Shown here: positions 2,763 through 15,333 of the stretch, one piece after another | Layout of the letters: every line of letters begins with the position of its first letter | Position numbering within the stretch: position 1 is the stretch's first letter | Source: Prochlorococcus sp. AG-409-L21 | GTDB taxonomy: Bacteria > Cyanobacteriota > Cyanobacteriia > PCC-6307 > Cyanobiaceae | Assembly (NCBI GenBank): GCA_003215475.1 | Contig: QCKH01000007.1 | Coordinates: 1 to 64,000, forward strand | Reading direction: 5' to 3' | Length of the DNA stretch: 64,000 nt | The notes under the pieces: generated by a model | Databases searched by the model: none | Seen by the model: the letters and a program-made list of their open reading frames with translations, nothing else | Told to the model about the DNA's origin: nothing | Translations under genes and position numbers: made by a program

Positions 2763-3311
2763 ATGCCTCTTATTCCTCTTTTACCAATATTTCATCGTTT
2801 TAATCGCCAATTTTTTGATGGTTTATTAGTTAAAGGTACTAAGCCCCTTGTTTCGGTGAGATGGAGTGATGGCAGATTACGAAATACTGCTGGTTTCTAT
2901 CGTCATAGTAAAAGGTTGGGAGGACAAAAAGTTTGTGAAATTGTTTTGTCTAGCCCAGTGCTGGAAAACCTTCCAGAAAGTGCAGTAGAAAGCACTCTTT
3001 GTCATGAAATGATTCATGCTTGGATTGATCTTGTATTAAAAGTTCCTGAGGGACATGGACCTAATTTTTTCGCACGCATGAAAACTATTAATTCTTCTCA
3101 GAATCGTTTTCAAGTAACTGTCCGACATAAATACCCTGTACCTATTAAATTGCCTAAGTGGTGGGCCATTTGTCCTTCTTGCGGATTAAAATCTCCCTAT
3201 AAACGAAGAGTGAAAGGCGTTGCTTGCAGACATTGTTGCGAGACTTTTCATGGGGGCAAGTGGCATGCAAGTTGTGTCCTTCATTTTGAGCCATTGCGTT
3301 ATGAACATTGA
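2763..3311 (+). CDS. SprT-like zinc metalloprotease family protein
   Basis: The protein carries the gluzincin-type HExxH motif in LCHEMIHAWID. Its C-terminal half has a zinc-ribbon pattern of paired cysteines (CPSCGLKSPY and CRHCCETFH), the architecture of the SprT/Spartan-like family. Eukaryotic SPRTN cleaves DNA-protein crosslinks; the bacterial homologues are less well characterised, so the substrate here is unknown. The ORF track begins at TTG 2733. I prefer ATG 2763, because MPLIPLLPIFHRFNRQFF is where SprT-type similarity begins and an ATG is available there. It is transcribed divergently from the neighbouring anchored-protein gene. Confidence 0.85.
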   Translation: MPLIPLLPIFHRFNRQFFDGLLVKGTKPLVSVRWSDGRLRNTAGFYRHSKRLGGQKVCEIVLSSPVLENLPESAVESTLCHEMIHAWIDLVLKVPEGHGPNFFARMKTINSSQNRFQVTVRHKYPVPIKLPKWWAICPSCGLKSPYKRRVKGVACRHCCETFHGGKWHASCVLHFEPLRYEH

Positions 3312-10273: not shown

Positions 10274-11542
10274 ATGTCTGAGATTGATCAACAAGTTTTA
10301 AACTTAGTTTTTAAAGTTGAAAAACGTTTTCAAGAAATAGCTAATAGAAGAACTAATGATGTATCTAGAAAAATGGAAAAGATTCTTAAGGCATTTTCTC
10401 GAGAAAGATTAGGAACCCAACACTTTGCGTCTGTTAGTGGATATGGACATGGAGATTTAGGCAGGGAGTTAATAGATAAAGTCTTTGCACATGTATTTGG
10501 TTCAGAAAAAGCTGCAGTTCGGATGCAATTTGTTAGTGGAACTCACGCAATATCATCAGCTTTATTTGGTGTTTTAAGGCCTGGAGATAATTTATTATCA
10601 GTTACAGGAAGACCCTATGATACTCTTGAGGAAGTAATAGGTTTAAGAGGAAAAGATCAAGGATCTTTGATAGATTTTGGAATAAATTATGATGAAATAT
10701 CTATTTTCAAAGATGGAAAAATTGATTACCATATTTTAGAGAGATCATTGGATGTTCCTAGATCAATGGTTTTCATTCAGAGGAGTTGTGGTTATTCACC
10801 TAAAGGATCTTTATCTATAAATAATATTTATGATATTTGTCGATTTATTCATAGAAAAAAATCTAATTGTATTTGTTTTGTTGATAATTGTTATGGAGAA
10901 TTTGTTGAAGACAAGGAGCCTAATGAGGTAGGTGCTGATTTAATTGCAGGCTCTCTACTTAAAAACCCTGGAGGAACGATTGTTCCTGCTGGAGGATATA
11001 TAGCTGGTCGAGCTGATTTAGTGGAAAAAGCATGTCATAGATTAACAGCACCTGGAATAGGAATGGATGCTGGTACTGGATTTAATTTAAATAGGCTTGT
11101 TTTGCAAGGTTTATTTCTTTCTCCTCAAATGGTTTCGGAAGCGTTAATTGGTGCAGATATTATTGCTGGTGTTTTTCAGGAATTAGGTTTTGATGTGAAT
11201 CCCTTACCTGGGGCTTTTCGAGGTGATGTTATTCAAACCGTTTGTTTAGGAAACTCTCATCTTCTTCAACTCGTCTGTAAATCGTTTCAAATGTCTTCTC
11301 CAGTTGGTTCTTTTTTAAATCCTATTGCTTCTGCAATGCCAGGGTATGAAAGTGATTTGGTTATGGCAGGAGGAACATTTATTGATGGAAGCACTAGTGA
11401 ATTTTCTGCTGATGCACCTTTAAGGTCTCCTTACAACCTTTATGTTCAAGGAGGCATACATAGATCACATATTAAAATTGCACTGACACATGCAGTGATT
11501 GCAATGGCTAGGGAAGGTTTTGTAAAATTACCTAAGATTTAA
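10274..11542 (+). CDS. PLP-dependent enzyme, aluminium-resistance / methionine gamma-lyase-like family
   Basis: This is a fold-type I pyridoxal-phosphate enzyme of the family annotated as aluminium resistance protein or Met_gamma_lyase (Bacillus YnbB type). Typical elements are GTQHFASVSGYGHGDLGRE near the N-terminus, VSGTHAISSALFGVLRPGD, the aspartate strand CFVDNCYGEFVE, and the probable Schiff-base lysine in AGSLLKNPGGTIVPAGGYI. The true substrate of this family is not settled; sulfur amino acids are a guess. It lies just upstream of gcvH (26 bp), so co-expression with the glycine cleavage genes is plausible. Confidence 0.88.
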   Translation: MSEIDQQVLNLVFKVEKRFQEIANRRTNDVSRKMEKILKAFSRERLGTQHFASVSGYGHGDLGRELIDKVFAHVFGSEKAAVRMQFVSGTHAISSALFGVLRPGDNLLSVTGRPYDTLEEVIGLRGKDQGSLIDFGINYDEISIFKDGKIDYHILERSLDVPRSMVFIQRSCGYSPKGSLSINNIYDICRFIHRKKSNCICFVDNCYGEFVEDKEPNEVGADLIAGSLLKNPGGTIVPAGGYIAGRADLVEKACHRLTAPGIGMDAGTGFNLNRLVLQGLFLSPQMVSEALIGADIIAGVFQELGFDVNPLPGAFRGDVIQTVCLGNSHLLQLVCKSFQMSSPVGSFLNPIASAMPGYESDLVMAGGTFIDGSTSEFSADAPLRSPYNLYVQGGIHRSHIKIALTHAVIAMAREGFVKLPKI

Positions 11543-11568: not shown

Positions 11569-11958
11569 ATGTCTTTTGATTTTCCAGGAAATTTCCGTTT
11601 TGCTGATAGCCATGAGTATGCATCTGTGGAAGCAGATTTAGTGCGTATTGGTATAAGCGCTTTTGCCGTTGATCAATTAGGAGACATAGTATTTGTAGAT
11701 TTACCTGACGTAGGATCTTCTGTAAATCAAGGAAGTAGTTTTGGGTCTGTTGAATCAGTAAAGGCTGTTGAAGATATGAATGCTCCCATCAGTGGCGAAG
11801 TAGTTGAAATCAATCAAACTGTTCTAGATAATCCTGAAGAGTTGCAGAATGATCCCCATGGTAAGGGTTGGTTATTGTTAGTTAAGCCTTCAGATCCAAA
11901 GCAAATGAATGACTTGATGACCTCGGACTCATATTCGCTAAAGATTGCCTCTCAATAA
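11569..11958 (+). CDS. gcvH: Glycine cleavage system H protein
   Basis: GcvH is the lipoyl-carrier of the glycine cleavage complex. It shuttles the aminomethyl intermediate from the P protein to the T protein during photorespiratory glycine breakdown. The lipoylated lysine sits in the conserved segment GSVESVKAVEDMNAPISGEV. The flanking HEYA near the N-terminus and NDPHGKGWLL near the C-terminus are also typical. The length is 129 residues. It is followed by the gcvP reading frames on the same strand; gcvT is not in the window. Confidence 0.97.
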   Translation: MSFDFPGNFRFADSHEYASVEADLVRIGISAFAVDQLGDIVFVDLPDVGSSVNQGSSFGSVESVKAVEDMNAPISGEVVEINQTVLDNPEELQNDPHGKGWLLLVKPSDPKQMNDLMTSDSYSLKIASQ

Positions 11959-12021: not shown

Positions 12022-13413
12022 TTGCTTTCCTTAGGAAAGCGTTTGGTTTTGGTTGAATTTCTCACTGAAAAGTTTGCAGATCGTCATCTTGGCCTTGATG
12101 AGAATGCACAAAAAGAACTATTAGATGCTTTGGGGCATAGTGATTTAGATAATTTCATTTCTTCAGTTGTCCCTGCAGAAATTCTTGATTCTCATCCTCC
12201 AGATTCCTTGCTTCCAGAATGCAATGAAATAGAAGCTTTAGAAGAATTGCGATTAATTTCTGAAAAAAATCAAATTAAAAGGTCTTTAATTGGTCAGGGA
12301 TATTACGGAACGGCAACACCTGCAGTAATTCAGCGCCATGTTTTTGAGAATCCTGCTTGGTATACCTCATATACTCCATATCAAGCAGAAATTGCGCAAG
12401 GCAGATTAGAAGCTCTCTTTAATTTTCAGACTTTAATTAGTGAATTAACTGGTTTACCAATAGCAAATGCCTCACTTTTAGATGAAGGTACGGCTTCAGC
12501 TGAAGCAATGAGTCTTAGTTTTGCAGTTAGAAAGAAATCTACTGCAAAGAAATTTCTTGTTGACAAGGAAGTGTTTCCACAGACGTTATCTGTTCTTAAA
12601 ACCCGTGCAGAGCCTTTAGGGATTGTTTTAGAAGAAATTGATCCTAAACAAGTTGAAATTACTGAAGAAGTATTTGGATTATTTCTTCAGTTACCAGGTA
12701 ATCATGGAGAGATGTGGGATCCTACGCCAGTAATTTCTAAGTCTCATATTGTTGATGCGTTGGTCACAGTAGCAATAGATCCTTTGGCTCAAGTATTGAT
12801 GCAACCTATTGCTGAATTAGGAGCAGATATAGCAGTTGGAAGTTCACAACGTCTGGGAATCCCTTTGGGTTTTGGTGGCCCTCATGCTGCTTTCTTTGCA
12901 ACTAAAGAGATATATAAACGACAAATACCTGGGAGGTTGGTTGGAGAATCAGTTGATTGTGAAGGCAATCCAGCTTTAAGGCTTGCATTGCAAACTCGGG
13001 AACAACATATAAGAAGAGATAAAGCTACAAGTAATATATGTACTGCGCAAGCTTTATTGGCTATTATTTCTTCTTTTTATGCTGTATATCATGGTCCTCA
13101 TGGATTAGAAGCTATATCAAAGAGAATTGTTTTTTTTAGAGCAGAATTAGAAGCATTTTTAAAAGATTTTGGTTATATAGTCGAACCTTTGTCTCGTTTT
13201 GACACTCTCGCTATTTATTGTGATGAAGCTGAAGAAATTCATCAGTCTGCGCAATTAAATGGTTTTAATTTTAGAATTCTTCCCTTTGGAAGCCCCATTA
13301 AAGAAGCTAAAGGCTTTGCAGTTTCTTTTGATGAATTGACTACCAGGAATGAACTAAATAAAGTATGTCAAATTCTTGCAGATATTAAGAAAAAAAATTT
13401 AATAAAAGTCTAA
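12022..13413 (+). CDS. gcvP: Glycine dehydrogenase (decarboxylating), N-terminal part of frameshifted GcvP
   Basis: This frame encodes the N-terminal half of the P protein, the PLP-dependent decarboxylase of glycine cleavage ([58 protein letters not shown]). No in-frame ATG exists near the start. TTG 12043 is better than 12022 because AGGA lies 6 bases before it. The frame stops at TAA 13413 after a run of eight A residues (13390-13397). Adding one A joins it in frame to the next ORF through [19 protein letters not shown]. The two ORFs together are about 960 residues, the normal size of one-chain GcvP. It could be a real two-frame gene rescued by slippage, a disabled gene, or a sequencing error. 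Confidence 0.88.
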
Positions 13414-13439
13414 AAAGAGAGTTTAATCTTAAAGATTTA

Positions 13440-14939
13440 ATGAGATCTGTTCCTTTAAGAAATAAGCCTTGGTTAAACACTCCAGTTTTTAAAAAATATA
13501 GAAGCGAAATGGAATTAATACGATATATTCAAACATTAGCTAGTCGAGACTTTTCATTAATTAATGGAATGATTCCGTTAGGAAGTTGCACAATGAAATT
13601 AAACGCGACTTCTCAACTGCTTCCAGTGAGTTGGAAAGAATTTTCTTCAATTCATCCATTTGTGCCTACTCAGCAATCTCAAGGATATATTGCTTTAACT
13701 AATCAACTAGAAGATTGGCTCTGTGCTTTAACTGGTTTTAAGGGAGTTTCTCTGCAACCTAATGCCGGCTCTCAAGGAGAGTTTGCTGGCCTTCTTGTAA
13801 TTCGAGCATGGCATCAATCCTGTGGTCAGAGTAATAGGAATGTTTGCTTGATTCCTAAGAGTGCGCATGGAACAAACCCTGCGAGTGCTGTTATGGCTGG
13901 TTTTAGAGTTGTATCGGTTGCATGTGATCAGTATGGAAATATTGATTTTCAGGATCTTTCGGTGAAGGTTGAAAAATATTCTTCTCAATTAGGAGCTTTG
14001 ATGATTACATACCCATCTACGCATGGTGTATTTGAACCAAATATTAAGCAGATTTGTGAACAAGTGCATAATCATGGTGGGCAAGTTTATTTAGATGGAG
14101 CGAATCTGAATGCTCAAGTAGGTCTTTGTAGACCAGCTGCTTTTGGAGCAGATGTATGTCATTTGAATTTACATAAAACATTTTGCATTCCACATGGTGG
14201 CGGTGGGCCAGGAGTTGGCCCTATAGCTGTATCAAGTCATTTAGTACCTTTTTTGCCTTCGAAAAAAATTGATTGTTCAATAGAAAGCTCTGCAATTGGT
14301 TCAATTTCTTCGGCTCCATTTGGTAGTGCAAGTATTTTGCCAATTAGTTGGATGTATATCCGGATGATGGGTGCAGAAGGACTAAGAAAAGCAAGTGCCT
14401 TAGCTATTCTTTCTGCAAACTTTATTGCTAGTCGCCTTGAACCTTATTACAAGGTTTTATTTAAAGCGCCAAATGGCAAGGTAGCTCATGAATGCATTTT
14501 AGATTTTCGTGATATTAAAAAAAAGACAGGTATTGAAGTGGATGATATTGCAAAAAGACTTATGGATTATGGCTTCCATGCACCAACTATAAGTTGGCCT
14601 GTAGCTGGTACTTTGATGATTGAACCTACTGAAAGTGAAAGCTTGGAGGAAATAAATCGTTTTTGCTTAGCCATGATTTCTATTCATTCAGAAATTAAAG
14701 CAATTGAATCAGGTCGGACAGATGTTTCTAATAATCCTTTACGCTTAGCTCCACATACTATGTCAATAGTAACTTCTGAGAATTGGGATAGACCCTATTC
14801 TCGTAAGCAAGCTGCCTTTCCATTAGAGGATCAGCTTAAAAATAAGTTTTGGCCTTCGGTTTCTAGAATAGATAATGCATTTGGAGATAGGAATTTAATC
14901 TGCTCTTGTAGAACAGTTGAAGAAATTGCAGAAGAATAA
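13440..14939 (+). CDS. gcvP: Glycine dehydrogenase, C-terminal part of frameshifted GcvP
   Basis: This is the catalytic half of the P protein. It has the conserved [20 protein letters not shown], the PLP pocket and the Schiff-base lysine in [16 protein letters not shown], then [20 protein letters not shown]. The frame is already open at 13389, so 17 codons before the ATG also match the GcvP linker ([11 protein letters not shown]). That argues the ATG at 13440 is not a natural start and that the protein is meant to be continuous with the preceding ORF. In organisms with genuine two-subunit P proteins (GcvPA/GcvPB), the halves have different lengths and linker ends. Confidence 0.9.
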
Positions 14940-14982: not shown

Positions 14983-15333
14983 TTGAGCGAAAACCAAAAT
15001 ATTGGTTTTAAATGCTGCAAACAAGTAGAAATTAATTTCTCTTTAGCAGTTTTACCGTTGCATGGGGGCAACTTGGTTAAAGATGTTTCTTTAGAACAAA
15101 GAGTAAAAGACTTAGCAAAAAATGATGTGAACTTGCCATCATTTTCTGGAATACTTGAGTCGACTTTAAGCCAAGGAAAATTATTGCAAGTTGATGGTAC
15201 TAATGTTGTTAGAGTTCCATTTGGAGTTCGAGAGCCAAGACGTAAGAGACCTCATCACACACCAAGACTGGCTACTTTAGTTTTACCTTTTCAAACTAGT
15301 GGCTCACCTAATCCACCACCGCATGCTGCTTAA
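14983..15333 (+). CDS. Conserved hypothetical protein, proline/arginine-rich C-terminus
   Basis: The 116-residue frame starts at TTG, with no ATG available upstream. The central part (LEQRVKDLAKNDVNLPSFSG) is helical, followed by strand-like ILESTLSQGKLLQVDGTNVVRVPFG. A basic turn (REPRRKRPHHTP) precedes a proline-rich end. I do not recognise a family. It starts 43 bp after gcvP and converges on sqdX. The last codons, HAA-stop, form one arm of a palindrome shared with the sqdX end. Confidence 0.6.
   Translation: MSENQNIGFKCCKQVEINFSLAVLPLHGGNLVKDVSLEQRVKDLAKNDVNLPSFSGILESTLSQGKLLQVDGTNVVRVPFGVREPRRKRPHHTPRLATLVLPFQTSGSPNPPPHAA

Follow-up and report, generated by a model that had tools for sequence, protein, structure and literature searches.

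The P-protein of the glycine cleavage system has been described in two arrangements. Cyanobacteria use a fused, homodimeric GcvP (4lgl, 4lhc and 4lhd; TIGR00461), whereas in two-subunit bacteria the same domains reside on separate chains, GcvPA and GcvPB (1wyt chains A and B), which are encoded by an established arrangement of two genes. For a gene interrupted by one base in a homopolymer, two kinds of precedent exist. In the endosymbionts Buchnera and Blochmannia, genes that have one indel in a poly(A) tract but are otherwise intact are rescued by transcriptional slippage (PMC3017870), and in E. coli indels within an 8A repeat are bypassed at basal expression (PMC3812077). Frameshifted genes can also be created spuriously by assembly (PMC11017572). 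Spurious frameshifts of this kind appear in draft genomes as isolated homopolymer indels in conserved genes, scattered across taxa.

The locus analysed here resembles each of these systems in part. The window, which denotes the whole stretch of 64,000 nucleotides under analysis (contig C7 of its assembly), comes from a Prochlorococcus of the SS120 genus, a free-living cyanobacterium with a genome of 35% GC. Its gcvP, a photorespiration gene (window positions of about 12043–14939, forward strand, as for its parts and for gcvH below), is broken once, at or beside a run of eight A. The first-pass annotation had placed this run at 13390–13397, which is its exact position in the sequence, and had read the two adjacent open reading frames as complementary halves of GcvP. 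The profile matches bear this out: ORF1 (12043–13413, stop codon TAA at 13411–13413) covers positions 1–427 of TIGR00461 and matches PF02347 with 513 bits, and ORF2 (13440–14939), which has the PLP-lysine motif of fused GcvP, covers positions 452–939 of the same profile with 807 bits, the GcvPB model NF003346 with 455 bits and residues 487–979 of 4lgl_A. No single open frame extends over the 939-position TIGR00461 profile at more than 859 bits; the match is distributed over two frames with 502 and 807–810 bits. One additional A (A9) at the presumed site of a one-base loss restores a single frame of 963 codons without an internal stop, in agreement with the approximately 960 residues proposed earlier. 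With A9 the linker stretch that is open in the ORF2 frame 5' of its ATG (13398–13439) also aligns without gaps to the homologue of SS120, in keeping with the match to the GcvP linker that had been noted for the residues preceding the ATG. For SS120 we used a complete genome of 1,751,080 bases (G001), which we take to be Prochlorococcus marinus SS120. The linker itself is poorly conserved (mean identity of 25% in the alignment with relatives). The break goes beyond what a fortuitous arrangement of ORFs would give, but A/T runs of eight are common in this genome, which has 312 of exactly that length in 1.34 Mb. Together the ORFs cover nearly the whole profile of a fused GcvP, with one interruption of the frame that lies in the linker.

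Only the start of the gene needs revision. The TTG at 12022 probably lies too far upstream, and a TTG at 12043 or 12049 fits better: an AGGA at 12033–12036 precedes both of these likely starts, and homology begins near 12079. Directly upstream of gcvP lies an intact gcvH (11569–11958; NF002270 with 155.8 bits at a cut-off of 117, TIGR00527 with 138.4 bits). The gcvH gene is itself directly preceded by a frame (10274–11542) weakly matching methionine gamma-lyase/cystathionine gamma-synthase families, of which it is not a true member (31 bits at a cut-off of 600), and an ORF of 116 amino acids (14983–15333) is located just downstream of gcvP. Relatives of ORF2 are also encoded by about 305 stretches of “viral” contigs in IMG/VR, the best 80 of which (L277–L356) are about 60% identical over nearly the full length; they may be contigs of cellular origin that entered the viral collection, or else genes carried by phages.

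To place the break within the genus, we compared the locus with genus relatives of other species. All seven relatives with a complete gcvP (G001, G002, G003, G004, G007, G011 and G012) have it fused in one open frame of 968–982 amino acids; an eighth gene (G005) is cut by a contig end and was not counted among the complete ones. At the junction, the longest A/T run in all eight sequences, the cut gene included, is 3–5 nucleotides versus eight in the window. This comparison of tract lengths had been proposed with the original reading, as had the possibility that relatives would turn out to carry two separately started subunits; none of the complete genes does, and the interpretation as one gene with a one-base frameshift at A8 holds. 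Judged against these relatives, all of other species, both the tract and the break thus appear to be confined to this genome. As the tract is absent from every one of them, it is not a conserved recoding site, and there is no sign of its maintenance. A scan of genome contigs for conspecific copies returned other species only, and one exact pattern of the junction flanks searched in viral contigs found no match.

Neither half of the gene shows decay in the genus comparison. The N-terminal half is on average 70.9% and the C-terminal half 78.5% identical to genus members (71–78% and 78–83%, respectively, for intact relatives in the same comparison). The first-pass annotation had described all catalytic residues as intact, and conserved residues are indeed so: 349 of the 351 columns that are invariant in 21 relatives are kept, the two differences lying within the range of 0–12 seen in other sequences. 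With no decay on either side, the change should be very recent, harmless or tolerated, or technical.

Extending the survey to 400 Cyanobiaceae genomes, in a screen that breaks near gene ends would escape, we found in-contig frame breaks of gcvP in four genomes, all of them drafts and together about 1% of the genomes with the gene. Besides the genome under study (G000), G373 (genus g17, 99% complete) has an extra A in an A7 run (GCTTTAAAAAAACGG; L377, about 1446–1456) in a well-conserved stretch of the N domain, where relatives keep the frame. G135, a nearly complete draft, has T6 where the frame needs T7 (GCTTTTTTGCC; L359, about 1506–1512), and G230 (6% contamination) is broken in a GC-rich stretch with no homopolymer (L369, about 3165–3210). 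None of about 71 single-contig genomes (counted by eye) has a broken gcvP. Two-piece matches near E = 1e-240 had suggested splits in several genomes and hence a recurrent fission at the linker; most of these proved to be either unbroken genes in which the linker has diverged (G148, G174, G194, G196 and G113) or cuts at contig ends, and the genuine breaks in G373, G135 and G230 lie at places other than the linker, so that recurrent linker fission is rejected. The sequences rather suggest a family pattern of sporadic, unrelated indels, as would be expected of draft errors and transient mutations.

In sum, the gene has one frame break, is otherwise intact, and has intact relatives. The explanation that we favour, at a confidence just short of an even chance, is a technical error: an ordinary gcvP would have undergone a single-base length change, most simply from A9 to A8, in the poly(A) of the interdomain linker in one draft assembly. 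The indel would have arisen in the whole-genome amplification, sequencing or assembly of an apparent single-cell genome, and the living species would keep a normal fused GcvP. The assembly probably is of the single-cell type, judging from its contig statistics and its neighbours: it consists of 27 contigs, all longer than 2 kb, with a total of 1.34 Mb and a completeness of 70%, and several of the nearest species representatives are AG- genomes of single-cell type (e.g. AG-402-G10). These contigs fit a published single-cell workflow with a cut-off of 2,000 bp, whose reported mean is 3.0 indels per 100 kbp and for whose set the reads are stated to be deposited (PMC6122165). A technical error is further favoured by the single break in an otherwise perfect gene, by the fusion of all complete genes in the genus and by the restriction of broken family members to drafts, the single-contig genomes being unbroken.

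Against a technical error stands the quality of the remaining assembly. Mechanical calling in 1.2 Mb of SS120 gave 1,051 ORFs, which we compared with almost all of the genome under study (1,339,292 bases, among them three small contigs read as N), counting genes with at least 40% identity. In the resulting 505 conserved genes (489 kb), where about 15 frameshifts would be expected at 3.0 indels per 100 kb, no other convincing frameshift was found, and the rate of single-base frameshifts is thus not raised elsewhere in this conserved coding DNA. In control simulations, one-base deletions at least 75 nucleotides from the ends of a match were detected in 126 of 128 cases, and those nearer the ends in 5 of 22. 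A generally error-ridden assembly is not supported, the sole candidate frameshift (S0398) being a spurious ORF that is matched across stop codons. All 72 A/T runs of 8–9 nucleotides inside conserved genes are in frame, although zero broken tracts among 72 bounds the rate per tract only to below about 4%. The assembly is better than the single-cell benchmark, yet one error in one A8 run is easily possible, and the appearance of a frameshift-free remainder is the point in which the locus differs from typical spurious draft frameshifts. That the break sits in the linker, which could tolerate a genuine mutation, also counts against an error. Taken together, a technical error and a real, recent private deletion, its three forms summed, are about equally likely.

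The first of these forms is a recent one-base deletion tolerated in the linker, after which the chains encoded by ORF1 and ORF2 would assemble like GcvPA and GcvPB, with ORF2 translated through re-initiation or internal initiation at the ATG at 13440. The break falls in the interdomain linker (TIGR00461 positions 427 to 452), close to where two-subunit bacteria have the boundary of GcvPA and GcvPB, so that, by analogy with the place of division in two-gene bacteria, two separate chains could be functional. Taken one by one, the halves have matches to the models of GcvPA and GcvPB and to 1wyt chains A and B; ORF2 with its 455 bits exceeds the GcvPB cut-off of 441, whereas ORF1 stays with 309.5 bits below the GcvPA cut-off of 364. 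Neither half is decayed, the ORF1 stop and the ORF2 ATG are just 26 nucleotides apart, and the absence of a Shine-Dalgarno-like motif before ORF2 says little because such a motif precedes only 40 of 320 genes here. However, none of the genus relatives with a complete gene is split, and ORF2 does not have much of the N-terminal extension that precedes the aligned region in 1wyt_B, residue 46 of that chain being paired with residue 22 of ORF2. The position of the break can also be explained by chance, at about 1 in 5, since one of the five A/T runs of 7–8 nucleotides in gcvP lies within the linker. In contrast to natural GcvPA/GcvPB, the halves here belong to one gene of the fused type that a single base has broken. 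We regard two working chains as unlikely, the least so of the three forms of a real deletion. That a fused GcvP has recently become a working two-chain enzyme, perhaps with some full-length protein made by slippage, and thereby taken the first step of a gene fission, is somewhat less likely again.

The deletion might instead have abolished glycine cleavage, as a null allele that arose very recently in this cell or its lineage. Single-cell genomes show the unselected mutations of one cell, and A/T runs are mutation hotspots. Mutants of Synechocystis in gcvT, the gene of the T-protein, are viable, though growth-retarded (PMC3025020). Deletions of photorespiratory-pathway genes, on the other hand, make Synechocystis dependent on high CO2 (PMC7133116), and a null should therefore be rare; here, gcvP has no second lesion and gcvH is intact. 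No gcvT was found in the assembly, which could be taken as a sign of decaying glycine cleavage. This was rejected, as the edge of contig C1 falls at aspS (the aspS match starts at base 46 of the contig; L142), next to which relatives have gcvT; the latter is probably missing from the assembly only, at a contig edge. We consider a null allele improbable, if by a trace less so than the fission step.

Least probable among the forms of a real deletion is one that is rescued, either because transcriptional slippage occurs on A8 or because the ribosome shifts by −1; both would yield some full-length GcvP. As in slippage-rescued genes, the gcvP indel falls in a long A/T run and the rest of the gene is intact. 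Unlike Buchnera and Blochmannia, however, the host is no endosymbiont, the tract is at the short end, efficient slippage being usually described for runs of about 9–10 or more, and the tract is absent from all genus relatives examined, the frameshift from all those with a complete gene. The heptamer A_AAT_TTA (13395–13401), which follows the X_XXY_YYZ pattern in the zero frame of ORF1, has the right frame and direction for a −1 shift; it is probably fortuitous, and a programmed frameshift with a stimulator is rejected, since a search for pseudoknot-free folds downstream of it found no stimulatory structure (fold z-score of −0.16). Rescue by slippage is possible, and nothing observed here speaks positively for it. 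The first-pass annotation had listed an error and a mutation as alternatives to slippage, and since these account for everything seen, they are the cheaper explanation.

Most likely, the A8 break is no new mechanism and stems from an error in copying or assembly or from a mutation that is recent and private. As matters stand, it adds to the homopolymer frameshifts in conserved genes of draft genomes and serves mainly as a caution for pseudogene calls that are based on single genomes. If A8 is true, the locus would be a natural experiment on whether a P-protein of the fused type can work as two chains, and also on the tolerance for slippage of a free-living AT-rich bacterium.
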